Translations under genes and position numbers: made by a program
DNA from: Fundidesulfovibrio magnetotacticus
GTDB lineage: Bacteria; Desulfobacterota; Desulfovibrionia; Desulfovibrionales; Desulfovibrionaceae
Reading direction: 5' to 3'
DNA: 64,000 nt
Assembly (NCBI RefSeq): GCF_013019105.1
Contig: NZ_BLTE01000003.1
Span: 186,001 to 250,000, forward strand
Notes under the pieces: generated by a model
Told to the model about the DNA's origin: nothing
Databases searched by the model: none
Seen by the model: the letters and a program-made list of their open reading frames with translations, nothing else
Part shown: piece by piece, positions 5,772 to 49,981 of the stretch
Layout: each line of letters begins with the position of its first letter
Position numbering within the stretch: the first letter of the stretch is position 1

Positions 5772-6745
5772 GAGGTGGTGCTCCAGGTGATTTTCGGAAA
5801 GGCCGAGATGGTCAGCGCAGGCGGGTCGAACCGGGACAAGGGGCGGAGCGTCGCGGAGGGTTGCTCCGGCATCGGGGGCGGGACAGGCCCGGAGTCCGGC
5901 GCGAAGAGACCCCGGGGAAAGGAAGCGGCGCGGACCTCAAGCGGTTCGAGCCCATCCAGCCAGCGCATCGCCTGGAGGCGTACGCCGTGCCAGTCGTAGA
6001 CCTTGGCGATGTCGCCCAGCAGCCTCCGGAGGGGCCCCCCTTCGTCCTGCGCGGCTTCCACGGACAGCCTCAGGGCCTGGAACACCTGCCTCCAGCTGCG
6101 ACAGGCCAGTTCAAACCCGCCGTCCATCCGGGGCAGGCAGGCGTCCACGGCGTCGCGCAGCTCCAATTCCCAGACAGCGTCGTCCTCGTCGGCGTGCCCT
6201 CCCACGGCCAGGAGCACCGTGTCCGGGCGCAGCCTGCCTTCGTTCCATCCGGCGGTCAGCTCCCGGGCCAGTTGCTCGGCCATCTGCTGCGGCACGCCGT
6301 CGCGGCGCTTGGCCTCCACGAGGATGTCCCTTTCGGTGCAATCCAGCACCACATCAGGCTCCACGCCGCGTTGCCCCGTGGACCACATGGGCCAGAACTC
6401 GGCCTCGTTGAGCGTGCCCGCCGGATGGTCCAGGCCCAGCAGGCGGTCCAGGAAGTCCGCGAACACGTCGTCGGGGAGATAGCCCAGCCGCTCGAAGACC
6501 GTGGCGGTGAGAATGTCTTCCGCGCCCACGGCCTCGGAGGAGTCCCAGCCGCCGCCGGAGAGGCCCGTGCCGCGCCGCTTGCCCTGGATGACGGCGGTCA
6601 GCACGGGAGGGATATCCTGGAGGATGCGATGTGGGAGGTCGAGGCGGCCGACCGGGAAGACGCGGCGCAAGGGGGGGCGGAGCGTTGGCGCATGGGGACG
6701 GACTCCTTTCCCCTGCGTGCGGACGGCGGGGGGGCTATGAACCAA
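5768..6745 (-). CDS. Unknown protein with PD-(D/E)XK nuclease-like core
   Basis: 325 residues if translated from the ATG at 6745. Around residues 129-146 the sequence VEPDVVLDCTERDILVEAK has the D-x(n)-ExK arrangement of PD-(D/E)XK nucleases (D131, E144, K146), with an upstream helix containing an acidic residue (AEDILTATVFERL) as seen in restriction-like folds. The first 35 residues are Arg/Pro-rich and look untranslated or poorly conserved. A better SD (AAAGGAG, 6703-6709) serves an out-of-frame ATG at 6693, discussed in the findings, so the true start is uncertain. No methylase or helicase partner is adjacent. A DNA-targeting or defence role is inference. Confidence 0.6.
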   Translation of the reverse strand: MVHSPPAVRTQGKGVRPHAPTLRPPLRRVFPVGRLDLPHRILQDIPPVLTAVIQGKRRGTGLSGGGWDSSEAVGAEDILTATVFERLGYLPDDVFADFLDRLLGLDHPAGTLNEAEFWPMWSTGQRGVEPDVVLDCTERDILVEAKRRDGVPQQMAEQLARELTAGWNEGRLRPDTVLLAVGGHADEDDAVWELELRDAVDACLPRMDGGFELACRSWRQVFQALRLSVEAAQDEGGPLRRLLGDIAKVYDWHGVRLQAMRWLDGLEPLEVRAASFPRGLFAPDSGPVPPPMPEQPSATLRPLSRFDPPALTISAFPKITWSTTS

Positions 6746-6865
6746 GGGCCGTCTGGCCCATGAGGCCGCAGACGGGGTCTGCAGTCCCGCGCGTGGCGCA
6801 GCCTGGAGCAGGGCGGCTTTGCCGCCTGCGAACGGCTCCGGCGAATCCCCTCTTAGGGGTGGCGC

Positions 6866-6899
6866 AACGAAAAAAGGGCCGTGAGGCCCTTTTTTCGTT
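6866..6899. terminator. Bidirectional intrinsic terminator
   Basis: A perfect 15-bp stem with a GTGA loop, with an A-run on the left arm and a T-run on the right, so it can work in both directions. It lies 42 nt after the stop of the minus-strand DEAD-box helicase gene. The rest of 6746-6941 shows no gene. Confidence 0.85.
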
Positions 6900-6941
6900 A
6901 CATCAAAACCCTGCGGGAGTCACCCCGCCGGGCGTCGAGCG

Positions 6942-8867
6942 CTAGGCGCTCTGGCCGCCGCCGCGGCGCGTGCCCCGGCGGTTGCCCTGGCCCGCGCGGG
7001 GGCCGTTGCCGGAGGCTTCCTTGCGGCGCTTGTCCTGGTAGCGGTTGGCGTTGCCCGCCACCTCGGTGGCGCGGCCGTAGAACCCGCCGCCCCCGTGGGC
7101 GTTGCCCTGGTCCCCGGACTGGCTTCCGGCGCGCCTGACGCCCCGTCCGGCGTTGCGGTTCCCGGCGTGGTTGCCGTCGTAGTCGCCGTGGATGCGCGGC
7201 TGGGGCGGCTGCACCATCACGAAGTTGTCCTGGCCCAGCCAGCCGCTCACGAGACTGTGGGAAGCGGCCTCGGTGTTGTAGTTCTTTTCCTGGGCGTCGT
7301 CCGCGGACGCTGCGGCCATCACGCCGCCCTGGCGGGTGATGTTGCCCTCCACGCCGCCCTGGCGGGGCTTGCCGCCCTGGCCCTGGCGGACGGGCATGCG
7401 GTTGCCGATGGAATCCTCGTCGATGCCCTGGGCCTGGACGGGAGCCTGCGGGCGGGGCCGGGCCTTGGGAGCCGCGGCCTGGGCGCGGGGCTCGGCGGCC
7501 TGGCGCGTTCCGGGCTGGGCGGCCATGCCTCCCTGGCGGGGCGCCCTGGCGGGTTCTCCGCCCTGGCGCACGCCGGACTGGCCCTGACGGGCGGGTTCAC
7601 CGCCCTGGCGCACGCCCGGTTTGGCGGCCATGCCGCCCTGGCGGGCGGGCTGGGAGGCCTGGGGCCTGGGGGCGCGGGCCTGTCCGCGTCCGGGCAGGGG
7701 AGGGCGCTGGAATTCGGTGTCGCGGTCGGGGGCTACCGCGCCGTAGTCGAAGCCTTCCACCTTGCGGCGCTCGATGGCCTTGCCCAGCAGGCGCTCGATG
7801 GCCCGCACCATGGAGGTGTCCTCGTGGGTGATCAGGGAGTGGGCCTGACCCTCGCGCTCGGCGCGGCCGGTGCGGCCCACGCGGTGGGTGTAGGTCTCGG
7901 GGGTGTCGGGCAGGTCGTAGTTGATCACGTGGGCCACGCGGGAAACGTCGATGCCCCGGGCGGCGATGTCGGTGGCCACCAGCACGGAATAGCGGCCGTC
8001 GCGGAAACCGTCCATGGCCTTCTGGCGCTGGTTCTGGGAGAGGTTGCCCTGGATGCAGGCGGCCTGGTGTCCCTGGCGGCAGAGCTGTTCGGCCAGGCGC
8101 TTGGCGCGGTGCTTGGTGCGCGCGAAGACGAGCACGGAGCCGTCGTCCGCTTTGCCCAGCAGGTTGAGCAGCAGCTTGGTCTTGAGGTGCTGGGGCACGG
8201 GGTAGAGGCGCTGCTCGATGGTCTGGGCGGGCTTGGCGTGGCCGATCTTCACCAGGGCCGGGTCCTTGAGGGTCTCGCCCGCCAGGCCGCGGATGGATTC
8301 GGGCATGGTGGCCGAGAAGAGCAGGGTCTGGCGCTCGGCGGGGAGCTTGGCCAGGATCTTGCGGATGTCGGGGAGGAAGCCCATGTCGAACATGTGGTCG
8401 GCTTCGTCGAGCACCAGGACCTCCACGCTGGAGAGGTTGGCGTTGCCCTGGTTGAGGTGGTCCAGGAGCCTGCCGGGGCAGGCCACCAGGATGTCCGCGC
8501 CCCGGCGCAGGTTGGCGGCCTGGGGGGAAAGGCTCACGCCGCCGTAGACGGTGGCGGTGCGCATGCGCATTCCGGCGGTGTAGTCCTTGGCGCTCTGGGC
8601 GATCTGTTCGGCCAGTTCGCGGGTGGGGGCCACCACCAGGCAGCGGGCGGAGCCGCGCAAGGGCTTGGGCTCGCGCAGGAAGCGGTCGATGATGGGGAGC
8701 AGGAAGGCGGCGGTCTTGCCGGTGCCGGTCTGGGCCAGGCCCATCACGTCGCGGCGCTGCTTGACGTGGGGGATGGCTTCACGCTGGATGGGGGTGGGGG
8801 TTTCGTAGCCCAGCTTGGCGACGTTGGCGAGAATGGAGGCATGGAGATCGAAATCGTCGAATTGCAA
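6942..8867 (-). CDS. DEAD-box ATP-dependent RNA helicase, RhlE-like, with repetitive RGG-type tail
   Basis: 641 residues. Core helicase motifs in order: Q motif (TPIQREAIP), I (AQTGTGKT), Ia (PTRELAEQ), Ib (TPGR replaced by CPGR), II (DEAD), III (SAT), IV (VFARTK), V (ATDIAARGID) and VI (HRVGRTGR). After about residue 375 there is a long Gln/Arg/Gly/Pro-rich tail with many RQGG units, ending in an Arg/Gly-rich stretch typical of RNA-binding tails. The start is a TTG at 8867, the only in-frame start that leaves the conserved FDDF segment near the N-terminus; it has an AAGGA SD at the right distance. Role: RNA duplex unwinding in ribosome assembly, mRNA decay or cold adaptation. Confidence 0.93.
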   Translation of the reverse strand: MQFDDFDLHASILANVAKLGYETPTPIQREAIPHVKQRRDVMGLAQTGTGKTAAFLLPIIDRFLREPKPLRGSARCLVVAPTRELAEQIAQSAKDYTAGMRMRTATVYGGVSLSPQAANLRRGADILVACPGRLLDHLNQGNANLSSVEVLVLDEADHMFDMGFLPDIRKILAKLPAERQTLLFSATMPESIRGLAGETLKDPALVKIGHAKPAQTIEQRLYPVPQHLKTKLLLNLLGKADDGSVLVFARTKHRAKRLAEQLCRQGHQAACIQGNLSQNQRQKAMDGFRDGRYSVLVATDIAARGIDVSRVAHVINYDLPDTPETYTHRVGRTGRAEREGQAHSLITHEDTSMVRAIERLLGKAIERRKVEGFDYGAVAPDRDTEFQRPPLPGRGQARAPRPQASQPARQGGMAAKPGVRQGGEPARQGQSGVRQGGEPARAPRQGGMAAQPGTRQAAEPRAQAAAPKARPRPQAPVQAQGIDEDSIGNRMPVRQGQGGKPRQGGVEGNITRQGGVMAAASADDAQEKNYNTEAASHSLVSGWLGQDNFVMVQPPQPRIHGDYDGNHAGNRNAGRGVRRAGSQSGDQGNAHGGGGFYGRATEVAGNANRYQDKRRKEASGNGPRAGQGNRRGTRRGGGQSA

Positions 8868-9055
8868 TGGATATCCTTGGGTTCGCGTTGACGGCGAAGA
8901 GCTGGCGTGACGCGCTTTGCTGCTTTCGCGGTCAGGAAGGCTCTCACGGGGAAACTGGTGGTGCGGCAGGTGCAGTCTGGTTGGGATGGGCGGGGCTTGC
9001 AGCTGGCCTCCGCCTCGCAGGCAGTCATGCCGGAGCGCTTGGATGCGCTGACACC

Positions 9056-9084
9056 CCATGTAAGCCTTTCGGGGGGCATGTCAA
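9056..9084 (-). promoter_or_regulatory. Candidate promoter for the DEAD-box gene
   Basis: Read on the minus strand there is a perfect TTGACA -35 (9084-9079) with a weak TACATG -10 sixteen nt later. It would leave a leader of nearly 190 nt before the TTG start, as seen for some cold-regulated RNA helicases. Apart from this, the 315-nt gap 8868-9182 shows no gene. Confidence 0.35.
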
Positions 9085-11873: not shown

Positions 11874-14804
11874 ATGATGGTTTGGCATGTATTTCGATTT
11901 ATCGTGTATATTGTAGTTGTGCAATCTGTGTTTACGATCCACAGTCATTCTGTGGCTTATGGCTCTTCGGTCAGGCAGGTAAAAAGGTTTGAATTGAATG
12001 CGGACGAAAGTGAGTTTATTAAAAATTTGCAACCGCTTAGAGTCATGGTAGATGACAATTTCATCCCAATATCGTATTATGATGTTCCAAATAAATTGTA
12101 TAAAGGTATCAGCGTTGACCTGTTTGTGAGCATGGCTCAAGGCATTGGCCTTAAATATCAATTTATACATGTTGAAGGGATGCTTTGGTCTGAAAAAGTT
12201 GAGTTGTTTAATAAGGGGGATGTCGATGTACTTTTGCCTGTTAGCATCAATGACCAGCGTTCGGCGAGGGGAATTTTTACTAGTACGTATTATAATTCAC
12301 ATTATGGATGTATTTCAAAAAAGACACGGCATGTCAAGATTAACAGTCTAGATGATTTGTCGTGCTACTCAGTCGGAGTGGTTAAGGAGTCGGCGATAGT
12401 GCCACTTGTTCAGTCGATTGTTGACCAAGCGCGAATAGTTGTTTTCCCTGGGCAGGAGGAGCTTTATAGTGGAATTAGGAACGGTGTTGTTGATGTTGGG
12501 CTGCAAAACATCAATGTTTTCCTGGAGGACCGTTCAAATCTTGAATACTTTGATATTGAACTAATGTATACTGTCAAAGAATTTCCAAGAAAGTATTCTT
12601 ATTATTTGACAAAAACGGATCAACACAAAATTCTTGCAGAAATTTTCAGCCGCTACATTGACAGCGTAGACTGCAGCGAGTTGGTGGCTTCATATGAGCG
12701 GGGCGAGGATGAGTTGATTTTGCGCTATATGGAACAGAAAAGCCAGGGAAGGGTGCTGATTGCGCTCATGGCGGGGGCGTTGATTCTTCTTGCGCTTATT
12801 AGTGTTGCATATGCAAATCATCGGAAGATGACGTCAATACTTTCTGCGACGTTGAAACAAGTGCAGTCGCAACAGGAAGTAATTTTGGACAGTGAGCACA
12901 GGCATCGCGTAATATTCGAAAATTCGCCCCTTGGAATGATTCGATTCTCAAATGATGGAACAATACTCGATTGCAACGACAAGTTCGTTGAGTTGATGGG
13001 GTCGACTCGGGCCGATTTGATAGGTTTTAATACGGCAAGGCAGAGCACTCTAAAAATGCGTGAAGCGATTGGAAGAGCTTTGTCTGGCGAGTGCGCTACA
13101 TATGAGGATATTTATGTTTCAGTGACCGGCAACAAGGAAACCGCTTTACGCGTAATTTTCAATCCTGTTCGGCATGAGGCTCCGACAGAGGTTATCGCAA
13201 CTCTTGAAGATGTCTCCAAGCGTCGAGAAGCAGAGGAGGCGCTTAAGATTAGCGAGGAGCGGTATCGTTCGTTGTTTACAGCTCAACTTGATGCATTCGC
13301 TTTACATGAAATCATTCTGGGTGCTGATGGGCATCCCGTGGACTACCGTTTTCTGGCTATGAACCCAGCATTTGAATCAATTACTGGACTTAAGATTGAA
13401 AATGTGCTGGGTCGAACAGTTATGGAGGTGCTCCCAAATACTGAAAGCTATTGGGTTGATCTTTACGGAAAAGTGGCGATGGAAGGTGCCCCTCTGAGAA
13501 TAGAAAATTACAGCAAGGCACTAAACCGTCATTTCGAAGTTAGTGCTTACTCTCCGCAGAGAGGACAGTTCGCGGTGGTTTTTCGAGATGTAACGGACCA
13601 ACATAACGCTAGTCTTGAGCTTGTAAAGGCAAAGGAAGCGGCAGAGAACGCAAATACATCAAAGTCTGAATTCTTGGCAAATATGAGCCATGAAATCCGT
13701 ACGCCCCTAAATGGTGTGCTAGGCATGCTTCAGCTTCTAGAAAACACTAACCTTGATGAAGAGCAAAGTGAATATCTGCTTGCTGCTGTACAGTCTTCCA
13801 GGCGTTTGACCCTGCTTCTCTCGGACATCCTCGATCTTTCGCGGATCGAAGCAGGTAAACTCGTCATTCAGAACTTGGTTTTCACCGTGGGAAATCTTAG
13901 AGATTCTGTTTTGGATCTGTTCGCCATTCCTGCCAAAGAAAAGAATCTGTCGCTACAGTTCTCCATTGATGACCAGACGCCATCGAGTCTTATTGGCGAT
14001 GAGGTCCGCCTGCGTCAGGTTCTCTTTAATCTTGTAGGCAATGCCATAAAATTTACTGACAAAGGGTTTGTTGCAGTAGACATAAGGCTTATTCAAGTGC
14101 AGAAGCCGGCCAAGGTGCGATTGCTATTTTCCGTGAGTGATAGTGGCATTGGTATCCCAGATAGTATGTTAAGAAATATTTTTGAACCCTTTACCCAGGG
14201 TGAGGATACATACACGCGGCGCTTCCAGGGCGCTGGTTTAGGCCTCTCTATAGTATTTAAACTTGTAAATATGATGGGTGGCGTTCTCTCGATTGACAAC
14301 AATGTTGACGGTGGTACAACAATATATTTAAGTCTTCCTTTCGCTATGCCTCATGGCGCAGATCAAGCCACTAGACAGTCATTATCTGTTGCCGTGCAAC
14401 CAGTTAGAATCCCCATGCGGATTCTTTTGGCTGAAGATGACAGGGTGAGCCAGCTCGCCGCAAAGCGAATGCTGGAAAAAACGGGATACACTGTCTTCAC
14501 TGCGCAAGATGGTCTTGAAGCCTTAAAATTGCTTGCTGAGAATGATTTTGACATGGTTTTCATGGATATCCAGATGCCCAATATGGATGGAGTGGAGGCG
14601 ACGAAGACAATTCGAAACGCTTCACGTTTCGGAACAAGGTCTAAGATTCCAATAATCGCAATGACAGCGTATGCCATGGCCGGAGACAAAGATAAGTTCC
14701 TGGCTGCGGGAATGGATGACTACATTGCTAAGCCCGTCGAGAAGGCTACTCTAATCGAAGTGATTGAACGTGTGATGGCTAACCGTCGTGAGAACGTTGT
14801 GTGA
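11874..14804 (+). CDS. Hybrid sensor histidine kinase with periplasmic solute-binding sensor (BvgS-like)
   Basis: 976 residues. Order: N-terminal signal/anchor (residues about 5-25), a periplasmic SBP_bac_3-type domain (about 50-280), a membrane segment (about 293-312), two PAS domains (about 340-455 and 460-585), HisKA with His606 in SHEIRTPLNG, HATPase_c with N and G boxes (LVGNAIKFTD, GAGLGLSIV), and a receiver domain with phospho-acceptor Asp898 in VFMDIQMP. This is the BvgS-like architecture that binds small ligands in the periplasm. The gene is strikingly AT-rich against its GC-rich neighbours and uses codons such as TTA, ATA and AGA, which indicates recent transfer. No HPt or response regulator is adjacent. 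Confidence 0.92.
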   Translation: MMVWHVFRFIVYIVVVQSVFTIHSHSVAYGSSVRQVKRFELNADESEFIKNLQPLRVMVDDNFIPISYYDVPNKLYKGISVDLFVSMAQGIGLKYQFIHVEGMLWSEKVELFNKGDVDVLLPVSINDQRSARGIFTSTYYNSHYGCISKKTRHVKINSLDDLSCYSVGVVKESAIVPLVQSIVDQARIVVFPGQEELYSGIRNGVVDVGLQNINVFLEDRSNLEYFDIELMYTVKEFPRKYSYYLTKTDQHKILAEIFSRYIDSVDCSELVASYERGEDELILRYMEQKSQGRVLIALMAGALILLALISVAYANHRKMTSILSATLKQVQSQQEVILDSEHRHRVIFENSPLGMIRFSNDGTILDCNDKFVELMGSTRADLIGFNTARQSTLKMREAIGRALSGECATYEDIYVSVTGNKETALRVIFNPVRHEAPTEVIATLEDVSKRREAEEALKISEERYRSLFTAQLDAFALHEIILGADGHPVDYRFLAMNPAFESITGLKIENVLGRTVMEVLPNTESYWVDLYGKVAMEGAPLRIENYSKALNRHFEVSAYSPQRGQFAVVFRDVTDQHNASLELVKAKEAAENANTSKSEFLANMSHEIRTPLNGVLGMLQLLENTNLDEEQSEYLLAAVQSSRRLTLLLSDILDLSRIEAGKLVIQNLVFTVGNLRDSVLDLFAIPAKEKNLSLQFSIDDQTPSSLIGDEVRLRQVLFNLVGNAIKFTDKGFVAVDIRLIQVQKPAKVRLLFSVSDSGIGIPDSMLRNIFEPFTQGEDTYTRRFQGAGLGLSIVFKLVNMMGGVLSIDNNVDGGTTIYLSLPFAMPHGADQATRQSLSVAVQPVRIPMRILLAEDDRVSQLAAKRMLEKTGYTVFTAQDGLEALKLLAENDFDMVFMDIQMPNMDGVEATKTIRNASRFGTRSKIPIIAMTAYAMAGDKDKFLAAGMDDYIAKPVEKATLIEVIERVMANRRENVV

Positions 14805-24445: not shown

Positions 24446-24796
24446 CGTTATCCCTCCTTGCACCGTGTTGCGGAACGTCGCGCCGATTTTGCCGCGCCGG
24501 TCTTTTTGGCGTGGGGCGGCGCGCTGCATCAGCCGGGAGCCGGTGAGGCCAACCCCGCATTAGCACGAGACGTGCCAGCAGAGTGGCGAATAGGAAAGTC
24601 AGTTATTCCGGTGGTTATTCTTGGTACAGAGCACGGGAACCGCCAACGGCCGGGCTGTGGACGCCAACGCGCGTTAGCACCTGCCGCGCGCTGGCGTTTG
24701 ATTTGACAGAAACGTTAAGATTGATCTTCGTCCGAGTTGTTCCTACAATCTGGTGGCGGATGGAGGCAGTGTGGGGCCCCATCCCGGGGAGAAGCG
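24446..24796. other. Divergent regulatory region between usp and GGDEF-EAL genes
   Basis: 351 nt without a gene. It holds a GCACG-AGA-CGTGC inverted repeat (24563-24575), a 10-nt near-repeat (GCATTAGCAC at 24558 and GCGTTAGCAC at 24671) and the plus-strand promoter at 24721-24749. No convincing sigma-54 or sigma-70 promoter for the minus-strand usp operon is visible to me. Confidence 0.5.
24721..24749 (+). promoter_or_regulatory. Predicted promoter for the GGDEF-EAL gene
   Basis: TTGATC (24721-24726), 17-nt spacer, TACAAT (24744-24749): one of the best sigma-70-like matches in the window, 47 nt before the start codon. Confidence 0.6.
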
Positions 24797-27634
24797 ATGA
24801 CGGGCGGGCAGACTTTCGATGCAGAGAACTTCCTGAGCCTCTTCGAGGAGGTTCCCGTGGCCGTGTGCCTTATCGACGCGGCCGACAGAGCCCTGAAGGT
24901 GAACAAGGCCTTCGAGCGCCTTTTCGGCTACCGCCGTGAGGAGATCGAGGGCCGTCCGCTGCTGGGGCTGGTGATCCCCCTCGGCCGCGAGAACGAGGTG
25001 GCCACCCTGGCCGAGGGCGTCCGCCGGGGGGGCAAGGGCCGCCTGGAGACCACCCGCAGGCGCAGCGACGGCAGCCACGTGCAGGTGGCCGTAACGCTCT
25101 TTCCGGCCTCCGGGCGCTCCGGCGAGGAGAGGTTCTTCGCCGTCTACAACGACCTCCAGGAACTGCGCGACGCCGAAAAGGACCTGCGCCGCGCCCAGGA
25201 CAAATACCAGGCCTTTTTCGAGAACGCCGCCGAGGGCATCTTCCAGTCCACGCCCGGGGGCGGCTACATCGTCGTGAACCCTGCCCTGGCGCGCATCTAC
25301 GGCTACAACTCGCCCGAGGACCTGATGAACTCGCTGCGAGACATCGAGCGCGAACTCTACGCGGACCCCGGGCGTCGCGACGACTTCATCCGCGCCATCA
25401 CCGCCGCGGGGGAGGTGCGCGACTTCGAGTCGCGCGTGCGCCGCAAGGACGGCTCCGTCATCTGGATCAGCGAGAACGCGCGCGTGGTCCGCCGCCCGGA
25501 CGGCAGCCTGGACTTCTTCGAAGGCACCGTCACCGACGTCACAGCCCGGCGCGAGGCCGAGGAGGCCCTCAAGGCCAGCAGCGAGCGCTACCGCTCCCTG
25601 GTGAAGTCGGCCTCCGACGGCATCCTCACCCTCAAGGACACGGCCGTGGTGAGCACCAACCTGCGCGCCCGCGAACTCTTCGGGTTCGACGAGGACGAAA
25701 TCCCCGGGCTGTGCCTGGAGAACCTGCTGCCGCCCGTGCAGCCCGACGGACGTCCCTCGGGGCAGGTGGCCCGCGAACTCTTGGACAAGGCCCTGGCCGG
25801 AGCGCCCCAGAAGATCGAATGGGTGCACCAGCGCAAGGACGCCGCGTGGTTCCACGCCGAGGTCTCGCTCAACCGCTTCGACGCCCACGGCGAGACCTTC
25901 CTCACCGCCGTGGTGCGCGACATCTCGGAGCGCAAGCGCACCGAAGCCGCCCTGGAGCGCGAACGCGCCCACCTGAAGCTGCTCTTCGAGAGCTCCCCGC
26001 AGGCCATGGTGCTGCTCAGCCCTGAGGGCCGAGTGCTCAACGTGAACCCCGCCTTCACGCGCCTCTTCGGCTACCCCAGCGCGGACGTGGCGGGCGAGTT
26101 CAACCGCAACCTCATCGTGCCCGAACACCTGGCCGCCGAGGCCGCCAGCTTCAACGCCCAGGTGAACGCCGGGCGCTTCGTTTCCAAGGAGACCGTGCGC
26201 CGCGCCAAGAACGGCACGCTCATCCCCGTCTCGGTGCTGGGCTACCCCATCGAGCTGGGCGGGCGCATCGAGGGCATCTACTACATCTACGAGGACATCA
26301 CCGAGCGCAAGAGCTTCGAGGACCAGCTCACCCACCAGGCCTTCCACGACGGGCTCACCGGCCTGCCCAACCGCAACCTCTTCACCGAGCGCCTCAACCG
26401 CGCCATGGAACGCTCCAAGCGGCGCATGGGCTACAACTTCGCCGTGCTGCTCCTGGACCTGGACCGCTTCAAGCGCATCAACGACTCCCTGGGACACCTG
26501 GCGGGGGACATCCTGCTCAAGGGCATCGCCCGGCGGCTGGAGTCCTGCGTTCGCTCCGTGGACACCGTGGCCCGCCTGGGCGGCGACGAGTTCGCCGTGC
26601 TCCTGGAGGAGTTCGCCACCTCCCGCGAGGTGATCGACGTGGCCGACCGCATCCGCCACGTGTTGGACAAGCCCTTCACCATCTCCGGCAACGAGGTCTA
26701 CTGCGGGGCCAGCATCGGCATCGTGCTCAAGACCCAGGGCTACACCACCGCCGAGGACATCCTGCGCGACTCCGACATCGCCATGTACCGCTCCAAGGAG
26801 TCCGGCAAGGACCGCCTGGCCTTCACACGGCGCATGCACGCCCTGGCCGTGGAAAACCTGCGCATGGAGAACGAACTGCGTCAGGGCCTGAAAAACGGCG
26901 ACCTGACCCTGCACTACCAGCCCATCTACTCCCTGCCCGGACGCGTGCTCCAGGGCTTCGAGGCCCTGGCGCGCTGGAAGCACCCCACCCTGGGCATGAT
27001 CCCCCCGGCGCGCTTCATCCCCCTGGCCGAGGAGACGGGGCTCATCGAGCCCCTGGGCGAGTGGGCGCTGGCCGAGGCCATGCTGCGCCTGGGCCGCTGG
27101 CGGGAGCTGCTGCCCCAGGCCCGCTCGCTCTACATGACGGCCAACATCTCCAGCAAACAGTTCCGCCAGACGGACCTGGTGGAGTCCATCCGCCTCGGCC
27201 TTTCGGCCCACCATATCCCACCGCATCTGTTCAAGCTCGAGATCACCGAAAGCGTGATCATGCGCGACGCCAAGACCTCGGGCGACAAGCTGGGCAAGCT
27301 CAAGAACCTGGGCGTGCACCTGCTGGTGGACGACTTCGGCACCGGCTACTCCTCCCTCTCCTACCTGCAGCGCTTCCCCATCGACGGGCTCAAGATCGAC
27401 CGCTCCTTCGTCTCCGGCCAGGGCGACGCCCGCGAGAACCGCGAGATCGTGCGCACCATCGTGTCGCTGGCGCGCAACCTGGAGCTGGACGTGGTGGCCG
27501 AGGGCGTGGAGACACGCGAACAGCTGGAGAGCGTGGCGGCCCTGGGCTGCCTCTCCGCCCAGGGCTACCTCTTCTCGCCGCCCGTGGACGCCGCCTCGGC
27601 CGAGCGCCTCATCCGCCTGGCCGGGCAGGGGTGA
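24797..27634 (+). CDS. 4xPAS-GGDEF-EAL cyclic-di-GMP enzyme
   Basis: 945 residues, no membrane segment, so cytoplasmic. Four PAS domains (about 10-130, 140-260, 267-390, 395-515) each with the usual aromatic/Gly pattern, then GGDEF (signature GGDEF at 595-599) and EAL (EAL at 722-724, with downstream NxSxxQ, ETxxI and DDFGTGYSSL motifs intact). Both catalytic signatures look complete, so it could make and degrade c-di-GMP, tuned by PAS ligands. The ATG at 24797 follows GGGGAG. Transcribed alone from a good promoter. Confidence 0.95.
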   Translation: MTGGQTFDAENFLSLFEEVPVAVCLIDAADRALKVNKAFERLFGYRREEIEGRPLLGLVIPLGRENEVATLAEGVRRGGKGRLETTRRRSDGSHVQVAVTLFPASGRSGEERFFAVYNDLQELRDAEKDLRRAQDKYQAFFENAAEGIFQSTPGGGYIVVNPALARIYGYNSPEDLMNSLRDIERELYADPGRRDDFIRAITAAGEVRDFESRVRRKDGSVIWISENARVVRRPDGSLDFFEGTVTDVTARREAEEALKASSERYRSLVKSASDGILTLKDTAVVSTNLRARELFGFDEDEIPGLCLENLLPPVQPDGRPSGQVARELLDKALAGAPQKIEWVHQRKDAAWFHAEVSLNRFDAHGETFLTAVVRDISERKRTEAALERERAHLKLLFESSPQAMVLLSPEGRVLNVNPAFTRLFGYPSADVAGEFNRNLIVPEHLAAEAASFNAQVNAGRFVSKETVRRAKNGTLIPVSVLGYPIELGGRIEGIYYIYEDITERKSFEDQLTHQAFHDGLTGLPNRNLFTERLNRAMERSKRRMGYNFAVLLLDLDRFKRINDSLGHLAGDILLKGIARRLESCVRSVDTVARLGGDEFAVLLEEFATSREVIDVADRIRHVLDKPFTISGNEVYCGASIGIVLKTQGYTTAEDILRDSDIAMYRSKESGKDRLAFTRRMHALAVENLRMENELRQGLKNGDLTLHYQPIYSLPGRVLQGFEALARWKHPTLGMIPPARFIPLAEETGLIEPLGEWALAEAMLRLGRWRELLPQARSLYMTANISSKQFRQTDLVESIRLGLSAHHIPPHLFKLEITESVIMRDAKTSGDKLGKLKNLGVHLLVDDFGTGYSSLSYLQRFPIDGLKIDRSFVSGQGDARENREIVRTIVSLARNLELDVVAEGVETREQLESVAALGCLSAQGYLFSPPVDAASAERLIRLAGQG

Positions 27635-41726: not shown

Positions 41727-42950
41727 TCACTCCAGGAACTGCGCCCAGTACTCCCAGTCCGGCTTGATGTGCGTGAGCCCCAGTTCCTGGCCCATCTCGA
41801 ACACCAGGATGAAGGCGAAGCACGCCAGGGCCGCACCGGCCAGAAGCTTTGCGCCGCCCTGGGCCTTGCGCAGCGTGAGCAGCCCGGGCAGCACCCCGAA
41901 GAGCAGGCAGATGCCCACTCCCCCCACCAGGTTCATCACGGCCAGGAAGATGTCCGGGTAGACCAGCGACACCACCAGCGGTGGCGCGAAAGCCAGCAGC
42001 CATGCCGTCGTGTGGCCTGGCCTGCGCCCCAGGCCGTCGCCCAGGTCCTTCAGGAAGTCCAGGAGCGCCGTGCCGTTGGCCAGGAAGGCCGCGCTCATGG
42101 AGAGCAGGGCGAACACCAGCCCGATGTCGGTGAAGGTGCGCGAATCCAGCAGGATGGAGAGCGGCACCGTGGCCGGGAGGTTCTTCTCGAAGGCGTTCAT
42201 GAGCGTGGCCGGACCCTGGCCCTCCATGGGCAGGGCGCAGAACACGGCCGCCGTCCAGGCCACGTTCATGGCCAGGCCCAGGAGCGATCCGTACAGGATG
42301 GATCGGCGCACCGCGCGCACGTCCCCCCGCATTTCCCGGCAGAGCGTGGGCACGAGATTGTGGAAGAGAAACGCCGTGAGCGCCACGGGCATGGCCGCGG
42401 GCAGGAACTCCGGGCGCATGGGCAGGGCGCGTTCGGGGTCCGCGTGGCCCAGGGTCATGGCGATGAGCGCGGCGAAGCTCACGCCCATGAGCAGAAGGAT
42501 CACCGCGTTGCAACGGCGCAGGATGGCCATGCCGAACCCCGTGAGCCCGGCCACGGCGCAGAAATAGAGCGTCGTGACCGCCCAGCGGGGCACGGGCACT
42601 GCGAAAAGGCTGTTCACCACCGTGGACGTGCCCACCAGGTAGGCCGTGAGCACCCCGTAGAAAATCACCATGTCCGCCGCCACGGCCAGCCACTTGGCCG
42701 AGGGGCCGAGCTTGGAACCGAAGAAGGCGGGCAGGCCGCCCGATCCCTCCTGGGAAAGCTCCGGCTGATCCGCCAGCACGTAGGCGCTGAAGAGCATGAG
42801 CGCCCACACCAGCACGATCCCGGCCAGGGAGGGGATCATCCCCGCTGGGCCCAGGTTCACCGGCAGGGCCAGGATGCCGGCCCCCAGCAGGTTCCCCGTG
42901 ACCATGAGCGACATGGTGAGCACGGGGGCCTTTCCGCCCGGGACGCCCAT
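41727..42950 (-). CDS. HAAAP-family amino-acid permease (CyuP/Mtr-like)
   Basis: 407 residues, about 11 hydrophobic segments. The N-terminal MSLMVTGNLLGAGILALPVNLGPAG is the family signature for hydroxy/aromatic amino-acid permeases (Mtr, TnaB, SdaC, CyuP). It follows the cysteine desulfidase-like gene with a 2-nt gap on the same strand. In E. coli the equivalent pair is cyuP with cyuA, so cysteine (or serine) uptake is the best guess. The substrate is inferred from context. Confidence 0.85.
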   Translation of the reverse strand: MGVPGGKAPVLTMSLMVTGNLLGAGILALPVNLGPAGMIPSLAGIVLVWALMLFSAYVLADQPELSQEGSGGLPAFFGSKLGPSAKWLAVAADMVIFYGVLTAYLVGTSTVVNSLFAVPVPRWAVTTLYFCAVAGLTGFGMAILRRCNAVILLLMGVSFAALIAMTLGHADPERALPMRPEFLPAAMPVALTAFLFHNLVPTLCREMRGDVRAVRRSILYGSLLGLAMNVAWTAAVFCALPMEGQGPATLMNAFEKNLPATVPLSILLDSRTFTDIGLVFALLSMSAAFLANGTALLDFLKDLGDGLGRRPGHTTAWLLAFAPPLVVSLVYPDIFLAVMNLVGGVGICLLFGVLPGLLTLRKAQGGAKLLAGAALACFAFILVFEMGQELGLTHIKPDWEYWAQFLE

Positions 42951-42952
42951 GG

Positions 42953-44293
42953 CTAGGCCCCGGCCTTCTGCTTGGCCAGCATCACGTCCAGGATGGCCGG
43001 ATCGAGCCCGGTGAGGCCCGTGCGCACCACCTGGGAGAGGTTGCGCATGGTCTGCTCGGGGCTCGCGTCCACGATGCCGTCGGTGGAGCGCACCACGCAG
43101 CCGCTGATGGCCAGCAGGGCGTTGCGCACGGCGGCCCCGGCCAGTTCGCCCACCTTGAGGGCGCAGCTGGTCTTGGCCCCGTCGCAGACCACGGGGGTGA
43201 AACAGGCGATGTGGTTCTTCACGGCCCCGCCCACGGCCTCGGCCGATCCGGCCATCATGTAGGCCACGGCGGCGGCCACGCCCGCGCCACCCGCCACGCC
43301 GCTGCCGCACAGGCAGGAAAGCCTGCCCACACCGGCCTTGATGCAGCAGGTCACCAGATAGCTGAGCATCACGGCCTTGAGGGCCAGGCCTTCGTCTTCG
43401 AGCGTCAGGTACTGGGCGGCCGAGATCACGGGGATGCCCGCCGCGATGCACTGGTTGCCCGATCCGGCCAGGGTCATGGCGGGCAGGGGCACGCCGCCCA
43501 TGCGCGAGTCGATGCCCGCGGCGGTGCGGATGGCCGCCCACTGGGCCATGTCCTTCTGCAGCAGGCCACGGCGCAGCAGGCCCAGGAGCGTGCGGCCCAC
43601 GGCGATGCCAGGTCCGCGCGAGAGGCCGTGGTCCACCAGGGCCAGGTTCAGGTCCAGGCCCTCGCGGACGTAGCGCAGGTCCGAGGCGTCCATGTCGTCG
43701 AGGATGTGCACCAGATCGGCCAGGGTCATGCCCAGAAGCCATTCCTGAAGCTCGGGCAGCAGGGTCTCGGAGGCCCCGCCAGCCTGGGCCGCGCCTGGCG
43801 CGGCCACCTCCTGGCCGTCGAGAGTGCGCGAGGAGACGTTGTCGTGGCAGCCCGAGACCACGGCCTGGGCCGTGCGTCCGCCGGAGACCAGGGTGACCCG
43901 CACGAAGAGCCCCTGCGCGTCCGGGGCGATGGAGGCCGTCACCCGGCCCTGGGCCAGCAGCCTGCGGGCGCGGGCCAGGCCCTCCTTGTCCACGGTGGCG
44001 AACACCTCCAGCTTTTTGGCCGGGTCCCCGGCGGTCGCGCCCATGGCGGCGGCCAGGTCCACGCCGGAGGTCTCGTCGGAGTGGGGGATGATCACGCCCA
44101 TGGCGTTCTTGTAGATGTTGGGGTCGGTCTCCACGGTAAGGGAGTCGATGTCGCCCGGCGGGAGGAGCGCGGCTGCCGTGGCCGCGCACAGGCCGATGGC
44201 GGCGGGTTCGGTGCAGCCCAGGCCCGGTTCGGTCTCCAGGTGCAGAAGCTGGCGTGCGTTGTTGTGCAGAATGTCCTTGATGGTGAGACCCAT
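42953..44293 (-). CDS. cyuA: L-cysteine desulfidase / L-serine dehydratase alpha family (CyuA-like)
   Basis: 446 residues, near the length of E. coli YhaM/CyuA. Conserved Fe-S ligand region: Cys in GLGCTEP and CIKAGVGRLSCLCGSG, ACFTPVVCDGAKTSC, plus AGSGNQC. The family uses a [4Fe-4S] cluster to deaminate or desulfurise cysteine to pyruvate, sulfide and ammonia. The coupled permease supports a cysteine catabolic operon. ATG at 44293 follows GGAGG by 5-6 nt. Confidence 0.9.
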   Translation of the reverse strand: MGLTIKDILHNNARQLLHLETEPGLGCTEPAAIGLCAATAAALLPPGDIDSLTVETDPNIYKNAMGVIIPHSDETSGVDLAAAMGATAGDPAKKLEVFATVDKEGLARARRLLAQGRVTASIAPDAQGLFVRVTLVSGGRTAQAVVSGCHDNVSSRTLDGQEVAAPGAAQAGGASETLLPELQEWLLGMTLADLVHILDDMDASDLRYVREGLDLNLALVDHGLSRGPGIAVGRTLLGLLRRGLLQKDMAQWAAIRTAAGIDSRMGGVPLPAMTLAGSGNQCIAAGIPVISAAQYLTLEDEGLALKAVMLSYLVTCCIKAGVGRLSCLCGSGVAGGAGVAAAVAYMMAGSAEAVGGAVKNHIACFTPVVCDGAKTSCALKVGELAGAAVRNALLAISGCVVRSTDGIVDASPEQTMRNLSQVVRTGLTGLDPAILDVMLAKQKAGA

Positions 44294-44388
44294 GGAAACC
44301 TCCGGGCGGTGGTGTTGGGCGCGGGCGCGCGAGCCGGTCTTTTCGCACGGCGCGGGCGCAAAGTCCATGAAGACGGCGGGAAAGAGGG

Positions 44389-46047
44389 CTAGAGCCGGGC
44401 GATGAGCGCGCCCAGCAGCGCCAGGAGCACGTTGGCGAAGGCGTAGGCCCCGGCGTAGCCCAGGGCGGGCAGGGAGCTGCGCGCGTGCTGGGTGACCACC
44501 TTGAGGGCCGGGGTGGAGGTCATGGCCCCGGCCATGGCCCCGAAGAGCAGGGTCGGGTTCATGCGCAACACGAAGCGCCCGAAGGCCAAACCGCCGAAGA
44601 GGCTCACGGCCGAGATGGTCACGCCGCAGGCCAGCAGCTCCAGACCCGAGTCGCGCAGGGCCGCCACCACCCCCTCGCCCGCCTTGAGGCCCACGCAGGC
44701 CATGAAGAAGAGAAGCCCCAGCTCCGAAAGGAGCCAGCGCGCCGCCTGGGGCATGCGCCCGAAGCTGGGCAGCGCCGAGCGCGCGAAGCCGAACACCAGC
44801 CCCGAGGCCAGGAGCCCCCCGGCCTGCCCGAGCCCCACCGTCACCTCGCCCAGCCGGAACTTGAGCGCCCCCAGCCACAGCCCCAGGAGCACGCCGCAGA
44901 CGAAGGCGATGAGGTCGGTCTCCACCATGGAGCGCTCCACGTAGCCCAGGGCCTTGACCACCACGTCGAGCCGGTGCTTGAGCCCCGCCACGGTGAGCAG
45001 GTCGCCCTTTTCCAGCACGATGTCGGGCCTGGGCGCGATGGGAATGTGCGAGCGCACCAGGCGCACGGGGGTGCAGCCCTGCCGGGCCAGCACGCTCAGC
45101 TCGCCCAGGGTCCTGCCTGCCGCGTCCTGGCTGGTGACGGTGATCTCGGCGGTGTCGATGACGTCCGAGAGCAGGTCCGTGTCGAACACCTCGCGGCCGA
45201 TGCGCTCGGCCGCCAGGGGGGCCATGCCCACGGGCATGGAGAGGGCCACCAGGTCGCCCGCTTCGAGGGGGTCGCCGGGGGAGGGCACGAACACCTCGCC
45301 GCCGCGCTTCACGGCCTGGAGGGCGCAGCGGCCGCCCCGGCAGATGTCCAGGCGCTCGAAGGCCTGCCCGGCCAGCTCGGGGCGCTCCACCTGGAAGGCG
45401 CGCAGCTGGGGCGGGGGGAAGGCGGGCTCCAGGTCGTCGGCGTCGTCGCGGAACTGGCGCTCGCGCGAGAGCATCTTGGCCTCGGCGGCCAGGTCCACGC
45501 GCAGCGCCACGGGCGCGAAGCGGATGAGCGCCAGGATGCTGAAGAGCCCCACCAGGTAGGTGAGGGCATAGGCCGAGCCCATCTGGGCCAGGGCGGTGTG
45601 GGAGTCCGGGTTGGACTGGATGAGCGCCTCCTGGGCCGCCACCAGGGTGGGCGAGCTGGTGAGCGTGCCCGCCAGCATGCCCGCCGAGGAAGGGGCGCTG
45701 AAGCCCCAGAGGTGGCCCAGGCCCAGGGCCGTGGCCCCGGCCAGCAGGGCCACCGTCACCGTGAGGGCCAGGTAGCGCGAGCCGTCGGCCAGCAGGATGT
45801 TGAAGAAGCGCGGCCCGGCCGTGAGGCCCACCGAATAGATGAACAGCGTGAAGCCGATCTCCTGGAGCATGGGCGGAGCCTTGAAGCCGAAGTGCCCGAA
45901 GAGCATTCCCGCCACGAGCACGCCCACGGGCGCGGAGAGGTGCACCCCCCGGAAGCCCAGCCTGCTGACGGCGTAGCCCGCCGCCAGCACCGCGAAGAAG
46001 AGCAGCAGGGGCTGGAGCTCGAAGAGTTGGGCGAGGTCGATGACCAT
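44389..46047 (-). CDS. AspT/YidE-type aspartate:alanine exchanger-like transporter
   Basis: About 552 residues. Two similar membrane halves (residues about 1-180 and 390-550), separated by two TrkA_C-like ligand domains (about 205-295 and 300-375), exactly the AspT/YidE/YbjL layout. Each half starts with a membrane duplication repeat with a TSSPT/TSTPA motif. AspT exchanges aspartate for alanine; the substrate of other members is unknown. Start taken at the ATG at 46047, 10 nt after GGAGG; an ATG at 46071 is in frame. It lies upstream of the cyuAP-like pair and is separate from it by 95 nt. Confidence 0.88.
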   Translation of the reverse strand: MVIDLAQLFELQPLLLFFAVLAAGYAVSRLGFRGVHLSAPVGVLVAGMLFGHFGFKAPPMLQEIGFTLFIYSVGLTAGPRFFNILLADGSRYLALTVTVALLAGATALGLGHLWGFSAPSSAGMLAGTLTSSPTLVAAQEALIQSNPDSHTALAQMGSAYALTYLVGLFSILALIRFAPVALRVDLAAEAKMLSRERQFRDDADDLEPAFPPPQLRAFQVERPELAGQAFERLDICRGGRCALQAVKRGGEVFVPSPGDPLEAGDLVALSMPVGMAPLAAERIGREVFDTDLLSDVIDTAEITVTSQDAAGRTLGELSVLARQGCTPVRLVRSHIPIAPRPDIVLEKGDLLTVAGLKHRLDVVVKALGYVERSMVETDLIAFVCGVLLGLWLGALKFRLGEVTVGLGQAGGLLASGLVFGFARSALPSFGRMPQAARWLLSELGLLFFMACVGLKAGEGVVAALRDSGLELLACGVTISAVSLFGGLAFGRFVLRMNPTLLFGAMAGAMTSTPALKVVTQHARSSLPALGYAGAYAFANVLLALLGALIARL

Positions 46048-46144
46048 GGACGGGTTTTCCTCCGCGCGCATTCCCGCCGGGACGCCGGGTTGACGGCTTG
46101 CCGGGGAGGACGCCGCGCTGCTGCGGGGCGTGTTCTGTGTCCGG

Positions 46145-49100
46145 TCAGGCCCCGCGTTCCAGGGGGGCCAGTTCCTCCAGGGCTTCCAGGTAGCCTTCGG
46201 AGTGGTCCAGGTAGAAGGCCAGGCCCTTGGAAAAGTTCTTGCCCAGCAGGCCGTCCAGGAAGAGCTGGCTGATCTCGCGCTTGCGCACCAACACCTGCTG
46301 GGAATGGGAGAAGATCTGTCGCGTCTTGGGGTCCATCTCGGCCAGCACGCGGGCCAGGGCCTGCCGACCCCGGGGCTGGTACATCCAGAAATAGAGGAAA
46401 TCGAGCGAGTTGACGATGACGGCGTTCACGAGGTCCGGCCTGTCCTTGCCCACGTCGGCCACGAAGCGCTTGGGTTCGGCCAGGATGTCCAGGCCGTCCA
46501 CGGTGGGGTGGAGGATCTCCAGCTTTTCCTGGACGGCGAGCATCTGTTCGATCTTGTCGCGGTAGTCGCCCAGGCGCTGGGCCATGTTGCTCTCGCGGTC
46601 GGCCAGGCCCTCGATGATCCCGGCCACGCAGTCGGAGGCCAGCTTGGAGATCACGGCGGCCCACTGCTGGAGGATGGGGTCGGCCAGGGAGGGGTCGTGG
46701 GCGGAGATGGCCGCGCCGAGGGCCGCGCTGAAGCCCATGGCCAGGGGGATGGAGAAGGCGCTGCGCAACAGGTTCAGGAAGGCGGCTTTGCGCGGCAGGC
46801 CCCGGTAGAGGTTGTGGGAGCAGATGTAGAGCCCGTTGACCATGGCCATCACGGTGTAGAGGAGCGTGGGGCTCGTGGCCACGCTCACGCCCAGGCCCCG
46901 GTCCAGGAAGAGCGTCTTCACGAAGAAGTCCAGCAGGGGCACGGAGAAGCCCGTGAACATGAGCGATTCGCAGAGGCGGTCCACGCTTACGTAGTCGTTC
47001 CACTTGAGTAGCGGCGTGCGCGAGATGCCCCCGCCGCCCAGCACCGACTGGATCACGTTGCGCAGCCCCGTGATGGCGAACCAGATGACGGCCCCGAACC
47101 AGGAGAGCACCCACCAGTCCTTGGTGAGCAGGAAGGTGAGCATGGCGGGCAGGAATCCGGCCAGCACCTTGAGGGTGTTCTTGAGTCCCGTGGTCAGGTA
47201 GGTCCAGGAGAGGCCCTTGCGCGGCGCGGGATCGGCCTGGGCCTGACGGCCCAGGGCGTTGCCGCAGCCCTTCTTGACTCCGCCCATGATGAGGATGTTG
47301 CTCTCGCCGGGCCTGGCCGGGAAGAACCCCCGGGACTTGAACTCCTCGCGGGCCTTGAAGCCCAGCCAGCGCATGCCCCGGGTGCGCCTGGCCCAGGCGT
47401 AGAGGGAATCCAGGGACGTGTGGGAGCTTTCGCGGGGTTCGCGCACGGTGCGCGGGTCCACGCGCAGGCCCACCACCATGGCGCGGCCCGCGTCGCGGGT
47501 GAAGGCCCAGGAGGCCTTGCGCGCGGCGGGGGGCAGGGTTTCGCGGGCCACCATGCCCATGCCGTAGCCCCGGCAGGACTGGCCCGTGGAGTCCGAGCCC
47601 ATGGAGGTGCGCAGGGGCCTGTCGCGGTACTGGGCGTGCAGCGAGGGCAGGGCGCGCAGGGCGGTTTCCAGGCGCTCCAGTCGCGCCGGGGCTTCGGGGG
47701 CGTCGCTCGCGCGCAGGGCGTCCATGCGCCCGAGCACCCAGCGCTTGAGGGGGATGAGGCTTTGCCGGTTCATCAGGTGCTGGAGGCGGGCGATCTCCAC
47801 GGGGTCATTGGCCTGGCCCATGGCGGAGTTGCGCAGGTTCACGGTCTCCAGGTGGGTGATCCTGCCCCGGCAGAGGCGCAGGATGTCCAGCACGTCCTCG
47901 GAGTCGAGGCAGCAGAGGTTCAGGATGAAGCGGTTGCCCGCGCGCAGGCGGGTCACCTCCTCGATGAGCTGCATGGGGCCCTGGGAGGCGCAGTAGAGGG
48001 GCGCTGCCTCGCCGTCGTCGGGGATTTCGCGGCTCACGAGGCTTTCGAGGTAGTCGTCCATGAGCGCGTCGGCGTCGAGGAGGTCCAGCTCCTCCATGAG
48101 CTCTGCGATGGCCGTCCGGTCGTCGGGCGCGGCGGCGGCCAGTTCGGCTTCCAGGGTCTGGTGGCGGGCCTGGAGGTGGGGCATCAGGCCCGCGTGGAGA
48201 TACTTGCCCAGGTGCACCAGGGAGGCCTGGCCCGAGCCCACGGCGGCCAGGAAACCCTCCGCGCCGAAGGGCTGGGCGTTCAGGCCGAAGTAGGAGTTGA
48301 AGTCGGGCAGGACGGTGTCGTTGAAGGCCCCCAGCACGTGGAGCAGCTGCTCCTGCTGGAGCTGGGCCAGGCGCTGGCCCTGGCTCATGAAGCGCACCAC
48401 CTCCTCGTGGCGCAGAAAGGCCAGGAAGTCCGAGCGGCCCGAGAAGCCGCGCGGCACCCAGATGATCTTGGCCTGCTTCTCGCGGTAGCGGGTCTGGAAC
48501 TCGATGCCGATGCGCACGGTGATGCCCATGATTTCCGCAGCCGAAAGCAATTCCTCGGCAGCGCCCTCGGGCACGAAGTTGTAGTAGATCACCGTGAGGT
48601 GGCGGATGCCCTTGATCCAGGCGTCCATGATCAGGTGCGTGGCGGACTTGCGGCCCTTGGTGTTGGCGTCGTGGACGTGGTTGTCGAAGCTGACCTGGTT
48701 CCACTCCTCGGGCATGAGCGCCAGGTGGCTCTGCCGGAGCTGGCGGGCCACCACGCGGGGCTTGCCGGTGGCGGCGGCGCGGAAATCGCGGGCCAGCTCC
48801 AGCTGGCGTCGCGGGTCGCCTTCGGTGCGCACCAGTTCCTTCATGATCTGCATGAGCACGCGGGCGGTGTTGCGCTTGAGGTGCGTGGCGGCGGTGCTCA
48901 TGGCCTCGGCCTGGAGGGCGCGCAGGGCGTTGATGCGGTCGTGAGCCTTGCCGATTTCGAGCGATCCCAGGAGGTTGGCTGCGGCGTAGGCCGTGCGCAG
49001 GCCCTGGCTGGCCGCCGTCTCCTTGATGCCGCGCGGGTGGAGATAGGGTGTGAGCAGGTGCTTGACCCCGGAGAGGTCTTCGCGGCCGAGCACATCGTGG

Positions 49101-49174
49101 ACGATGCCCAGCAGTTCATGGTCTTTGCGGTCGAAGAGCAGACGGTCTTCGAGCGTGCGCGCGCCGTGACGCAT
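46145..49174 (-). CDS. Large protein with degenerate PHP-type motif and C-terminal membrane region
   Basis: 1009 residues. Around residues 163-226 the order FDNHVHDANTKG (Asp164, His166, His168), then a strand, then RIGIEF matches PHP metal motifs I and the GxE motif, but the ITDH motif is replaced by VIYYNF. About 400 mostly helical residues follow, then DRPLRTSMGSDSTGQSCRGYGMG and membrane segments at about 660-685, 690-710, 765-785 and 805-825. The last 150 residues are soluble and helical. No signal peptide. I recognise no characterised homologue; a membrane-bound, possibly inactive, PHP-like phosphoesterase is one reading. Confidence 0.72.
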   Translation of the reverse strand: MRHGARTLEDRLLFDRKDHELLGIVHDVLGREDLSGVKHLLTPYLHPRGIKETAASQGLRTAYAAANLLGSLEIGKAHDRINALRALQAEAMSTAATHLKRNTARVLMQIMKELVRTEGDPRRQLELARDFRAAATGKPRVVARQLRQSHLALMPEEWNQVSFDNHVHDANTKGRKSATHLIMDAWIKGIRHLTVIYYNFVPEGAAEELLSAAEIMGITVRIGIEFQTRYREKQAKIIWVPRGFSGRSDFLAFLRHEEVVRFMSQGQRLAQLQQEQLLHVLGAFNDTVLPDFNSYFGLNAQPFGAEGFLAAVGSGQASLVHLGKYLHAGLMPHLQARHQTLEAELAAAAPDDRTAIAELMEELDLLDADALMDDYLESLVSREIPDDGEAAPLYCASQGPMQLIEEVTRLRAGNRFILNLCCLDSEDVLDILRLCRGRITHLETVNLRNSAMGQANDPVEIARLQHLMNRQSLIPLKRWVLGRMDALRASDAPEAPARLERLETALRALPSLHAQYRDRPLRTSMGSDSTGQSCRGYGMGMVARETLPPAARKASWAFTRDAGRAMVVGLRVDPRTVREPRESSHTSLDSLYAWARRTRGMRWLGFKAREEFKSRGFFPARPGESNILIMGGVKKGCGNALGRQAQADPAPRKGLSWTYLTTGLKNTLKVLAGFLPAMLTFLLTKDWWVLSWFGAVIWFAITGLRNVIQSVLGGGGISRTPLLKWNDYVSVDRLCESLMFTGFSVPLLDFFVKTLFLDRGLGVSVATSPTLLYTVMAMVNGLYICSHNLYRGLPRKAAFLNLLRSAFSIPLAMGFSAALGAAISAHDPSLADPILQQWAAVISKLASDCVAGIIEGLADRESNMAQRLGDYRDKIEQMLAVQEKLEILHPTVDGLDILAEPKRFVADVGKDRPDLVNAVIVNSLDFLYFWMYQPRGRQALARVLAEMDPKTRQIFSHSQQVLVRKREISQLFLDGLLGKNFSKGLAFYLDHSEGYLEALEELAPLERGA

Positions 49175-49348: not shown

Positions 49349-49981
49349 ATGCTTGGCATCCACGACTTCTGGCTCTTCGTCGCGTCCGGGATCCTGATGA
49401 ACATCGCTCCCGGGCCGGACAACCTCTATGTGGCCGGGCGGGCGGCGTCCCATGGGTTCCGGGCGGGCGCGCTGGCGGCTTTCGGCATCGCCTCGGGGTG
49501 CGTGGTGCACATCCTGGCGGCGGCGTTGGGGCTCTCGGCGGTGATGGCGGCCTCGTCCACGGCCTTCACGGTGGTGAAGCTTGCGGGCGCGGCCTATCTG
49601 GTCTGGAGCGGGCTCTCCCTGCTCCTGGCGCGCGGCGGCGGCGAGGCCCGGTCCGTCGCGCACGAGGACCTGGCCCGGCGCAAGGTGTTCACCCAGGGTT
49701 TTTTGACCAACGTGCTCAACCCCAAGGTGGCGCTGTTCTTCCTGGCGTTTCTGCCCCAGTTCATCGACCAGTCCGCGCCGGGCAAGGCCCTGGCGTTTTT
49801 GGCCCTGGGGTTTGTCTTCAACCTGACGGGCACGGCGTGGATGCTCTGTCTGGCGTGGTCCTCGGCCAAGGCCGCGTCGCTGGTGCGCGGCAACGGGCGC
49901 ACGGGGGCGTGGCTGGGCCGGGCCACGGGGGCGCTCTTCGTGGGGCTGGGCGTGCGCCTGGCCCTTTCGGACGCACGGTAG
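49349..49981 (+). CDS. LysE/RhtB-family amino-acid exporter
   Basis: 210 residues with six hydrophobic segments. N-terminal FVASGILMNIAPGPDNLYVAGRA is the LysE/RhtB signature; LTNVLNPKVALFFLAFLPQFI follows in the middle. Exports amino acids such as threonine, homoserine or lysine; substrate unassigned. A GGGG-rich SD lies just before the ATG. Confidence 0.92.
   Translation: MLGIHDFWLFVASGILMNIAPGPDNLYVAGRAASHGFRAGALAAFGIASGCVVHILAAALGLSAVMAASSTAFTVVKLAGAAYLVWSGLSLLLARGGGEARSVAHEDLARRKVFTQGFLTNVLNPKVALFFLAFLPQFIDQSAPGKALAFLALGFVFNLTGTAWMLCLAWSSAKAASLVRGNGRTGAWLGRATGALFVGLGVRLALSDAR

Follow-up and report, generated by a model that had tools for sequence, protein, structure and literature searches.

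What kind of protein carries part of a PHP metal site and then continues into a membrane domain? The question is posed by a gene at 46145..49174 (-) in the 64,000-nucleotide stretch of Fundidesulfovibrio magnetotacticus DNA analysed here (the window), an ORF of 1009 codons with an ATG start. The gene is real and conserved. A sequence-only reading had located D164-N-H166-V-H168, GIEF (223-226) and VIYYNF (195-200, the place of ITDH in PHP proteins), and the motifs do stand at these residues; judged from our 134-row family alignment they are family-wide features, not single-sequence quirks, with D164, H168 and Y198 each kept in 134/134 homologues. That reading overlooked a C-terminal PHP motif, GSDSTG (526-531), in which the metal-ligand Asp is kept and the His of the canonical SDxH is absent. 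It also counted four membrane segments; both the hydropathy averaged over the alignment and two AlphaFold2 models point to six. The gene is divided as follows.

46145..49174 (-): whole gene, a 1009-residue PHP/six-TM protein of subfamily A (ORF, tblastn relatives, 134-row alignment, AlphaFold2 model)
48725..49174 (-): N-terminal all-helical domain, residues 1-150, without family match (AlphaFold2 model; conservation 0.66)
48440..48697 (-): first half of the PHP barrel, residues 160-245 (fold match; hhalign to the RNase AM family)
48671..48685 (-): DNHVH, PHP motif I, residues 164-168, with the alpha-site ligands H166 and H168 (hhalign, alignment)
48656..48658 (-): K173 codon, at the position of the lost gamma-site Asp (D20 of RNase AM) (hhalign, alignment)
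48578..48586 (-): YYN in place of T-D-H, residues 197-199; gamma-site His lost, Y198 invariant (family alignment)
48497..48508 (-): GIEF, residues 223-226, with the bridging Glu E225 kept (hhalign; 126/134)
47975..48439 (-): enlarged helical insertion, residues 246-400, where the insertion domain of RNase AM/Cv1693 sits (model; subfamily B hhalign)
48212..48232 (-): GQASLVH, residues 315-321, with Q316 and H321; equivalent of the RNase AM GRPH with its Arg lost (hhalign, control set)
47255..47947 (-): second half of the PHP barrel, residues 410-640, with extra beta strands and the invariant E443 (fold match to 616-618; model strands)
47582..47599 (-): GSDSTG, residues 526-531, with alpha-site D528 kept and the gamma His of SDxH replaced by T530 (alignment; the genome's own RNase AM has GGSDFHG)
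46595..47197 (-): six-helix membrane domain, residues 660-860 (models, hydropathy, conservation)
46166..46594 (-): C-terminal helical domain, residues 861-1003, presumed cytoplasmic (models)

A tblastn scan of genome contigs yielded 381 relatives; the best 80 of the 381 are all from Thermodesulfobacteriota, counting records filed under the older names Deltaproteobacteria/Proteobacteria. The carriers are thus sulfate reducers and bacteria related to them. Relatives are full-length and collinear (∼ 1000 residues aligned, 40-67% identity). The nearest named one, from F. agrisoli, is 63% identical, and same-genus genomes range from 63 to 67%. Among sampled whole genomes, 29/39 close relatives carry the gene, as do 45 of the 395 genomes sampled across the phylum and 107/192 in the class of genome G199. 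Plasmid records held no relative, and the phylum sample held no stand-alone version of the membrane part beyond one marginal match of 33 residues. Some genomes have more than one copy: in one of them two divergent full-length copies lie tail to tail (L025:27-3386 (+) and L025:3416-6928 (-)), and several Desulfovibrionaceae genomes have two or three (G114, G147, G203, G228, G373 and G410). The member at G480:C1:924952-929167 is broken into several ORFs with an internal stop and is probably a decaying copy.

No model in Pfam, NCBIfam or PADLOC recognises the 1009-residue protein (Pfam gives no match at E up to 1), and a PDB sequence search found no match for it. The gathering score of Pfam PHP (PF02811) is not reached, and none of nine relatives matches PHP at E up to 10. 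Weak matches to YscG, FaeA, CorA, a pneumovirus nucleocapsid and others lie below cut-offs and differ between members, and we therefore regard them as chance. The sequence-only reading knew of no characterised protein with such a layout, which fits these null results and those of our literature search. By fold, the PHP half falls within a known superfamily; the combination of PHP and six helices was not found in the literature or family libraries searched. For a large, highly conserved protein of this prevalence, we found neither a family model in those libraries nor a paper.

The fold was examined in an AlphaFold2 model built with 58 homologues (pLDDT 84.5, pTM 0.83). Foldseek and VIA-align on this model place a PHP barrel at residues 160-618, and the model shows the distorted beta/alpha barrel of the PHP superfamily, as the earlier reading had supposed (Z 18-20 to PHP structures). 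The best structural matches, spanning ∼ 250-260 residues, are 3e0f (BAD_1165, Z 19.8), 2yb1 (Cv1693, Z 18.9) and 9etk (RNase AM, Z 18.4). They are followed by PHP domains of DNA polymerases at Z 10-12, and the first unrelated fold appears at Z 6.3. Among viral structures the only matches, all weak, are to other PHP domains. BAD_1165 and Cv1693, both PHP phosphoesterases, are the closest solved folds; they are soluble, compact proteins with 13-14% identity to ours, and the Cv1693 structure, that of an RNase AM-like enzyme, contains Mn, AMP and phosphate.

Sequence profiles point to RNase AM (YciV; a PHP 5'-3' exoribonuclease; PDB 9etk, 7ug9) as kin. The homologues include a deeply divergent subfamily B (L111, L165-L168; ∼ 940 residues) with the same architecture as subfamily A. 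Compared by hhalign with the RNase AM family of the same genomes, subfamily A matches over residues 164-258 (E 8.6e-6), and subfamily B matches with E 2.3e-10 and 97% probability, in an alignment that runs through the insertion and takes in a GRPH-like motif. By profile comparison, then, subfamily B is an intermediate that ties the family to RNase AM. In both, a helical insertion interrupts the barrel at the same place (246-400 here), and ours is the larger. The second half of the barrel gave no significant hhalign profile match to RNase AM; its alignment relies on the fold and on the pairing of GSDSTG with GGSDFHG. RNase AM has ∼ 285 residues versus 1009; our protein adds the N-terminal helical, membrane and C-terminal helical domains. 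The genome also encodes an ordinary PHP protein of the RNase AM type, in which the set of nine ligands is complete (L113:1111-1965 (-)), and the membrane protein is therefore not its replacement.

RNase AM binds three Mn ions: alpha by His13, Glu72 and Asp255, beta by Glu72, His83 and His198, and gamma by Asp20, His45 and His257; the mutations D20A, E72A or D255/H257A disrupt its activity, and Arg107, Arg110 and Arg141 hold the 5' phosphate (PMC9410882). The 1009-residue protein keeps four of the nine PHP metal ligands, and these are precisely the alpha set: H166, H168, E225 and D528. The second His of the HxH motif is one of the four, which we assume from general PHP knowledge. The HxH of motif I is thus present and the full trinuclear set is not, the other five ligands being replaced (D20 by K173, H45 by N199, H83 by K236/I237, H198 by L420 and H257 by T530). 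Position 173 is K in 124/134 homologues, and E in subfamily B. As a control, 30 RNase AM proteins from the same genomes were aligned; each of the nine ligands is found in 29-30/30, and the one exception concerns one position. The invariant arginines of RxxR and GRPH in this control set were taken as the equivalents of Arg107, Arg110 and Arg141. Subfamily A keeps the insertion and, in 133 of the 134 rows, H321, which aligns to GRPH; it has 0/3 of the arginines of RxxRN and GRPH. With the beta and gamma sites and the phosphate pocket gone, subfamily A is unlikely to carry out canonical RNase AM chemistry or to act by its mechanism, since it lacks D20 and H257, which are among the residues mutated in the inactive RNase AM variants. 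That the alpha set alone is retained suggests that one metal would be bound.

Subfamily B differs. It keeps all three 5'-phosphate arginines, together with HxH and E225; a His resembling H83 is also present (KHF), and two of the gamma positions are acidic. The D528 position is Ala and the H198 position mostly Arg. We had considered B a keeper of the beta site, an idea dropped because of this Arg in most members. Aligned in this way, A and B have each lost part of the site, though not the same part, and A is further from RNase AM.

Within the alignment the alpha ligands are well kept, including the two histidines whose conservation the sequence-only reading required: H166 is found in 132 rows, H168 in 134, E225 in 126 and D528 in 126, and all four occur together in 119/134 (89%). 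Several lineages lose alpha ligands (E225 to S, or H166 to R with D528 to G) and keep the other pocket residues; parsimony on a FastTree tree of limited quality, with long branches, requires at least two, three and four changes at 166, 225 and 528, respectively. Unchanged in all 134 rows are D164, H168, D169, K176, D184, K188, Y198, Q316 and E443. Because this set never changes, selection acts on the pocket even in members that lack one of the metal ligands. The sequence-only reading had offered a pseudo-enzyme sensor or an unusual phosphoesterase; the ligand losses favour a non-canonical or non-catalytic PHP domain, as far as an alignment can tell.

The six membrane helices are predicted at ∼ 662-684, 688-714, 731-761, 769-791, 795-826 and 828-860, and the positive-inside rule and the model helices would put both termini inside. 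Among the large parts of the protein, the membrane domain is the best conserved: 48 of its 201 positions are ≥ 97% conserved, compared with 20/86 in the shorter first PHP half. Near-invariant polar residues of the helices are concentrated on one side, with 17/20 in the presumed cytoplasmic halves (Fisher p 0.001): T702, R705, N706, Q709, S737, T741, S744, H787, N788, R791, N801, R804, K844, S847, D848, E855 and D859. This distribution points to work at the cytoplasmic face, beside the PHP domain, rather than to simple anchoring or to sensing in the periplasm. Modelled alone, the membrane and C-terminal domains reach a pLDDT of 88.7. Against the PDB this model gave no Foldseek match under E 1.7 and a best VIA-align Z of 5.5; a null match of this kind does not prove novelty, and we say only that the membrane domain may have a new fold. 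SpecificRecomb (PF10136) proteins are large membrane proteins of bacteria that also have soluble, helical regions, and they share this much with our protein. The family was tried as the membrane part and rejected: the genome itself has no PF10136 match, and hhalign to the one member compared, L169, showed no profile similarity (probability 0.2%, with a single-sequence template).

The reading that we prefer, with a little less than even confidence, is a membrane protein in which the PHP domain binds a ligand, with one metal or none, and serves as a regulator. An RNase AM/YciV-type PHP domain, together with its insertion domain, would have been fused to a distinct six-helix domain of the inner membrane, and the PHP pocket would have been remodelled after the fusion. 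The pocket, facing the cytoplasm, would act as a ligand-binding regulatory domain with a single metal, or none in some lineages, rather than as a three-metal hydrolase. We propose that the membrane domain is under its control, the conserved polar face on the cytoplasmic side being the putative working part. The invariance of H168, D169, K176, Y198, Q316 and E443 speaks against a regulator, being what is expected of catalytic residues. A more specific version strikes us as rather unlikely: a six-helix fold absent from the PDB would have a function of its own at the cytoplasmic face, and its cytoplasmic sensor would be a PHP domain with one metal, descended from an enzyme of RNA processing. The six helices may then perform lipid or phosphate chemistry, or form a gated pathway. 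If this version is true, an enzyme has turned receptor and been fused to a new membrane effector, and the result is widespread in Thermodesulfobacteriota. Ligand loss is graded, from nine ligands in RNase AM through the intermediate B to the four alpha ligands of A, and fewer in some lineages, the family itself having one architecture; the transition from enzyme to sensor would thereby become testable by mutation and metal analysis.

The same site could instead belong to an active, membrane-tethered mononuclear hydrolase, which we hold to be the main rival, though less likely than not. Here the alpha metal alone would activate water, as in mononuclear amidohydrolases, and the substrate would be phosphorylated or otherwise membrane-proximal, for example a phospholipid headgroup. 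The joint retention of the alpha four exceeds what a pure pseudo-enzyme needs, so that one-metal catalysis is possible; under random loss exactly that set would survive in ∼ 1 of 126 cases, and the invariant D169, K176, Y198, Q316 and E443 are in keeping with a catalytic pocket. However, E225 and/or D528 are lost in several lineages in which the rest of the protein is intact, and the second metal, which helps to make the nucleophile in PHP enzymes, lacks both of its private ligands.

A third view, in our opinion improbable, makes the PHP domain a structural scaffold only and assigns function to the membrane and helical domains. It has a precedent in the PHP domain of E. coli DNA polymerase III alpha, which is likewise ligand-depleted and is kept for stability in a larger protein (PMC3666897). 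That domain matches ours in fold (Z 12), but is part of a polymerase, has other fusion partners and no membrane domain. The lower mean identity of the insertion (0.54) and the second PHP half (0.53) compared with the membrane domain (0.74) would suit a scaffold. The first PHP half, however, is the most conserved stretch of all (0.78), and together with invariant H168, D169, K176, Y198, Q316 and E443 this exceeds what a scaffold needs. Finally, a conventional three-metal PHP phosphoesterase, with missing ligands misaligned or supplied by other residues such as the conserved D169, H180 and H321 near the barrel motifs in sequence, is very hard to sustain, since hhalign sets K173 on the SDG Asp ungapped and N199 beside TDH, and H321 falls on the insertion motif and not on a ligand.

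The neighbouring genes in the window are an exporter and a transporter.

44389..46071 (-): downstream neighbour, Asp-Al_Ex/TrkA_C transporter
49349..49981 (+): divergent upstream neighbour, LysE-type exporter

Over 100 loci there is no conserved gene partner or operon, and neighbours vary; the arrangement with Asp-Al_Ex downstream recurs in Fundidesulfovibrio only. The transporter is part of an amino-acid cluster lying directly downstream (window 41727-46071), with a Trp/Tyr permease and a serine dehydratase alpha chain. A glycerophosphodiester phosphodiesterase (GDPD) gene adjoins four related A loci on the downstream side. At L111 a GDPD gene (5425-6195) lies upstream and stops right before the start of the subfamily B gene (6196-9060), which suggests translational coupling. 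At L046 the genes directly upstream encode a PiT-like phosphate permease, identified by eye, and a PhoU_div protein, and L003 has a PhoU_div gene upstream. The recurrence of such neighbours hints at phosphorus or phospholipid metabolism and lends the hydrolase a little weight; they are, however, too sparse for us to lean on and come mostly from one clade.

Elsewhere in the window, 24737-27634 (+) encodes a multi-PAS GGDEF-EAL protein, opposite which runs a 1231-residue ORF without Pfam match, probably a spurious one. A hybrid histidine kinase with an SBP_bac_3 sensor and PAS domains is encoded at 11874-14804, the lowest-GC stretch (51.5% versus ∼ 68% around it).
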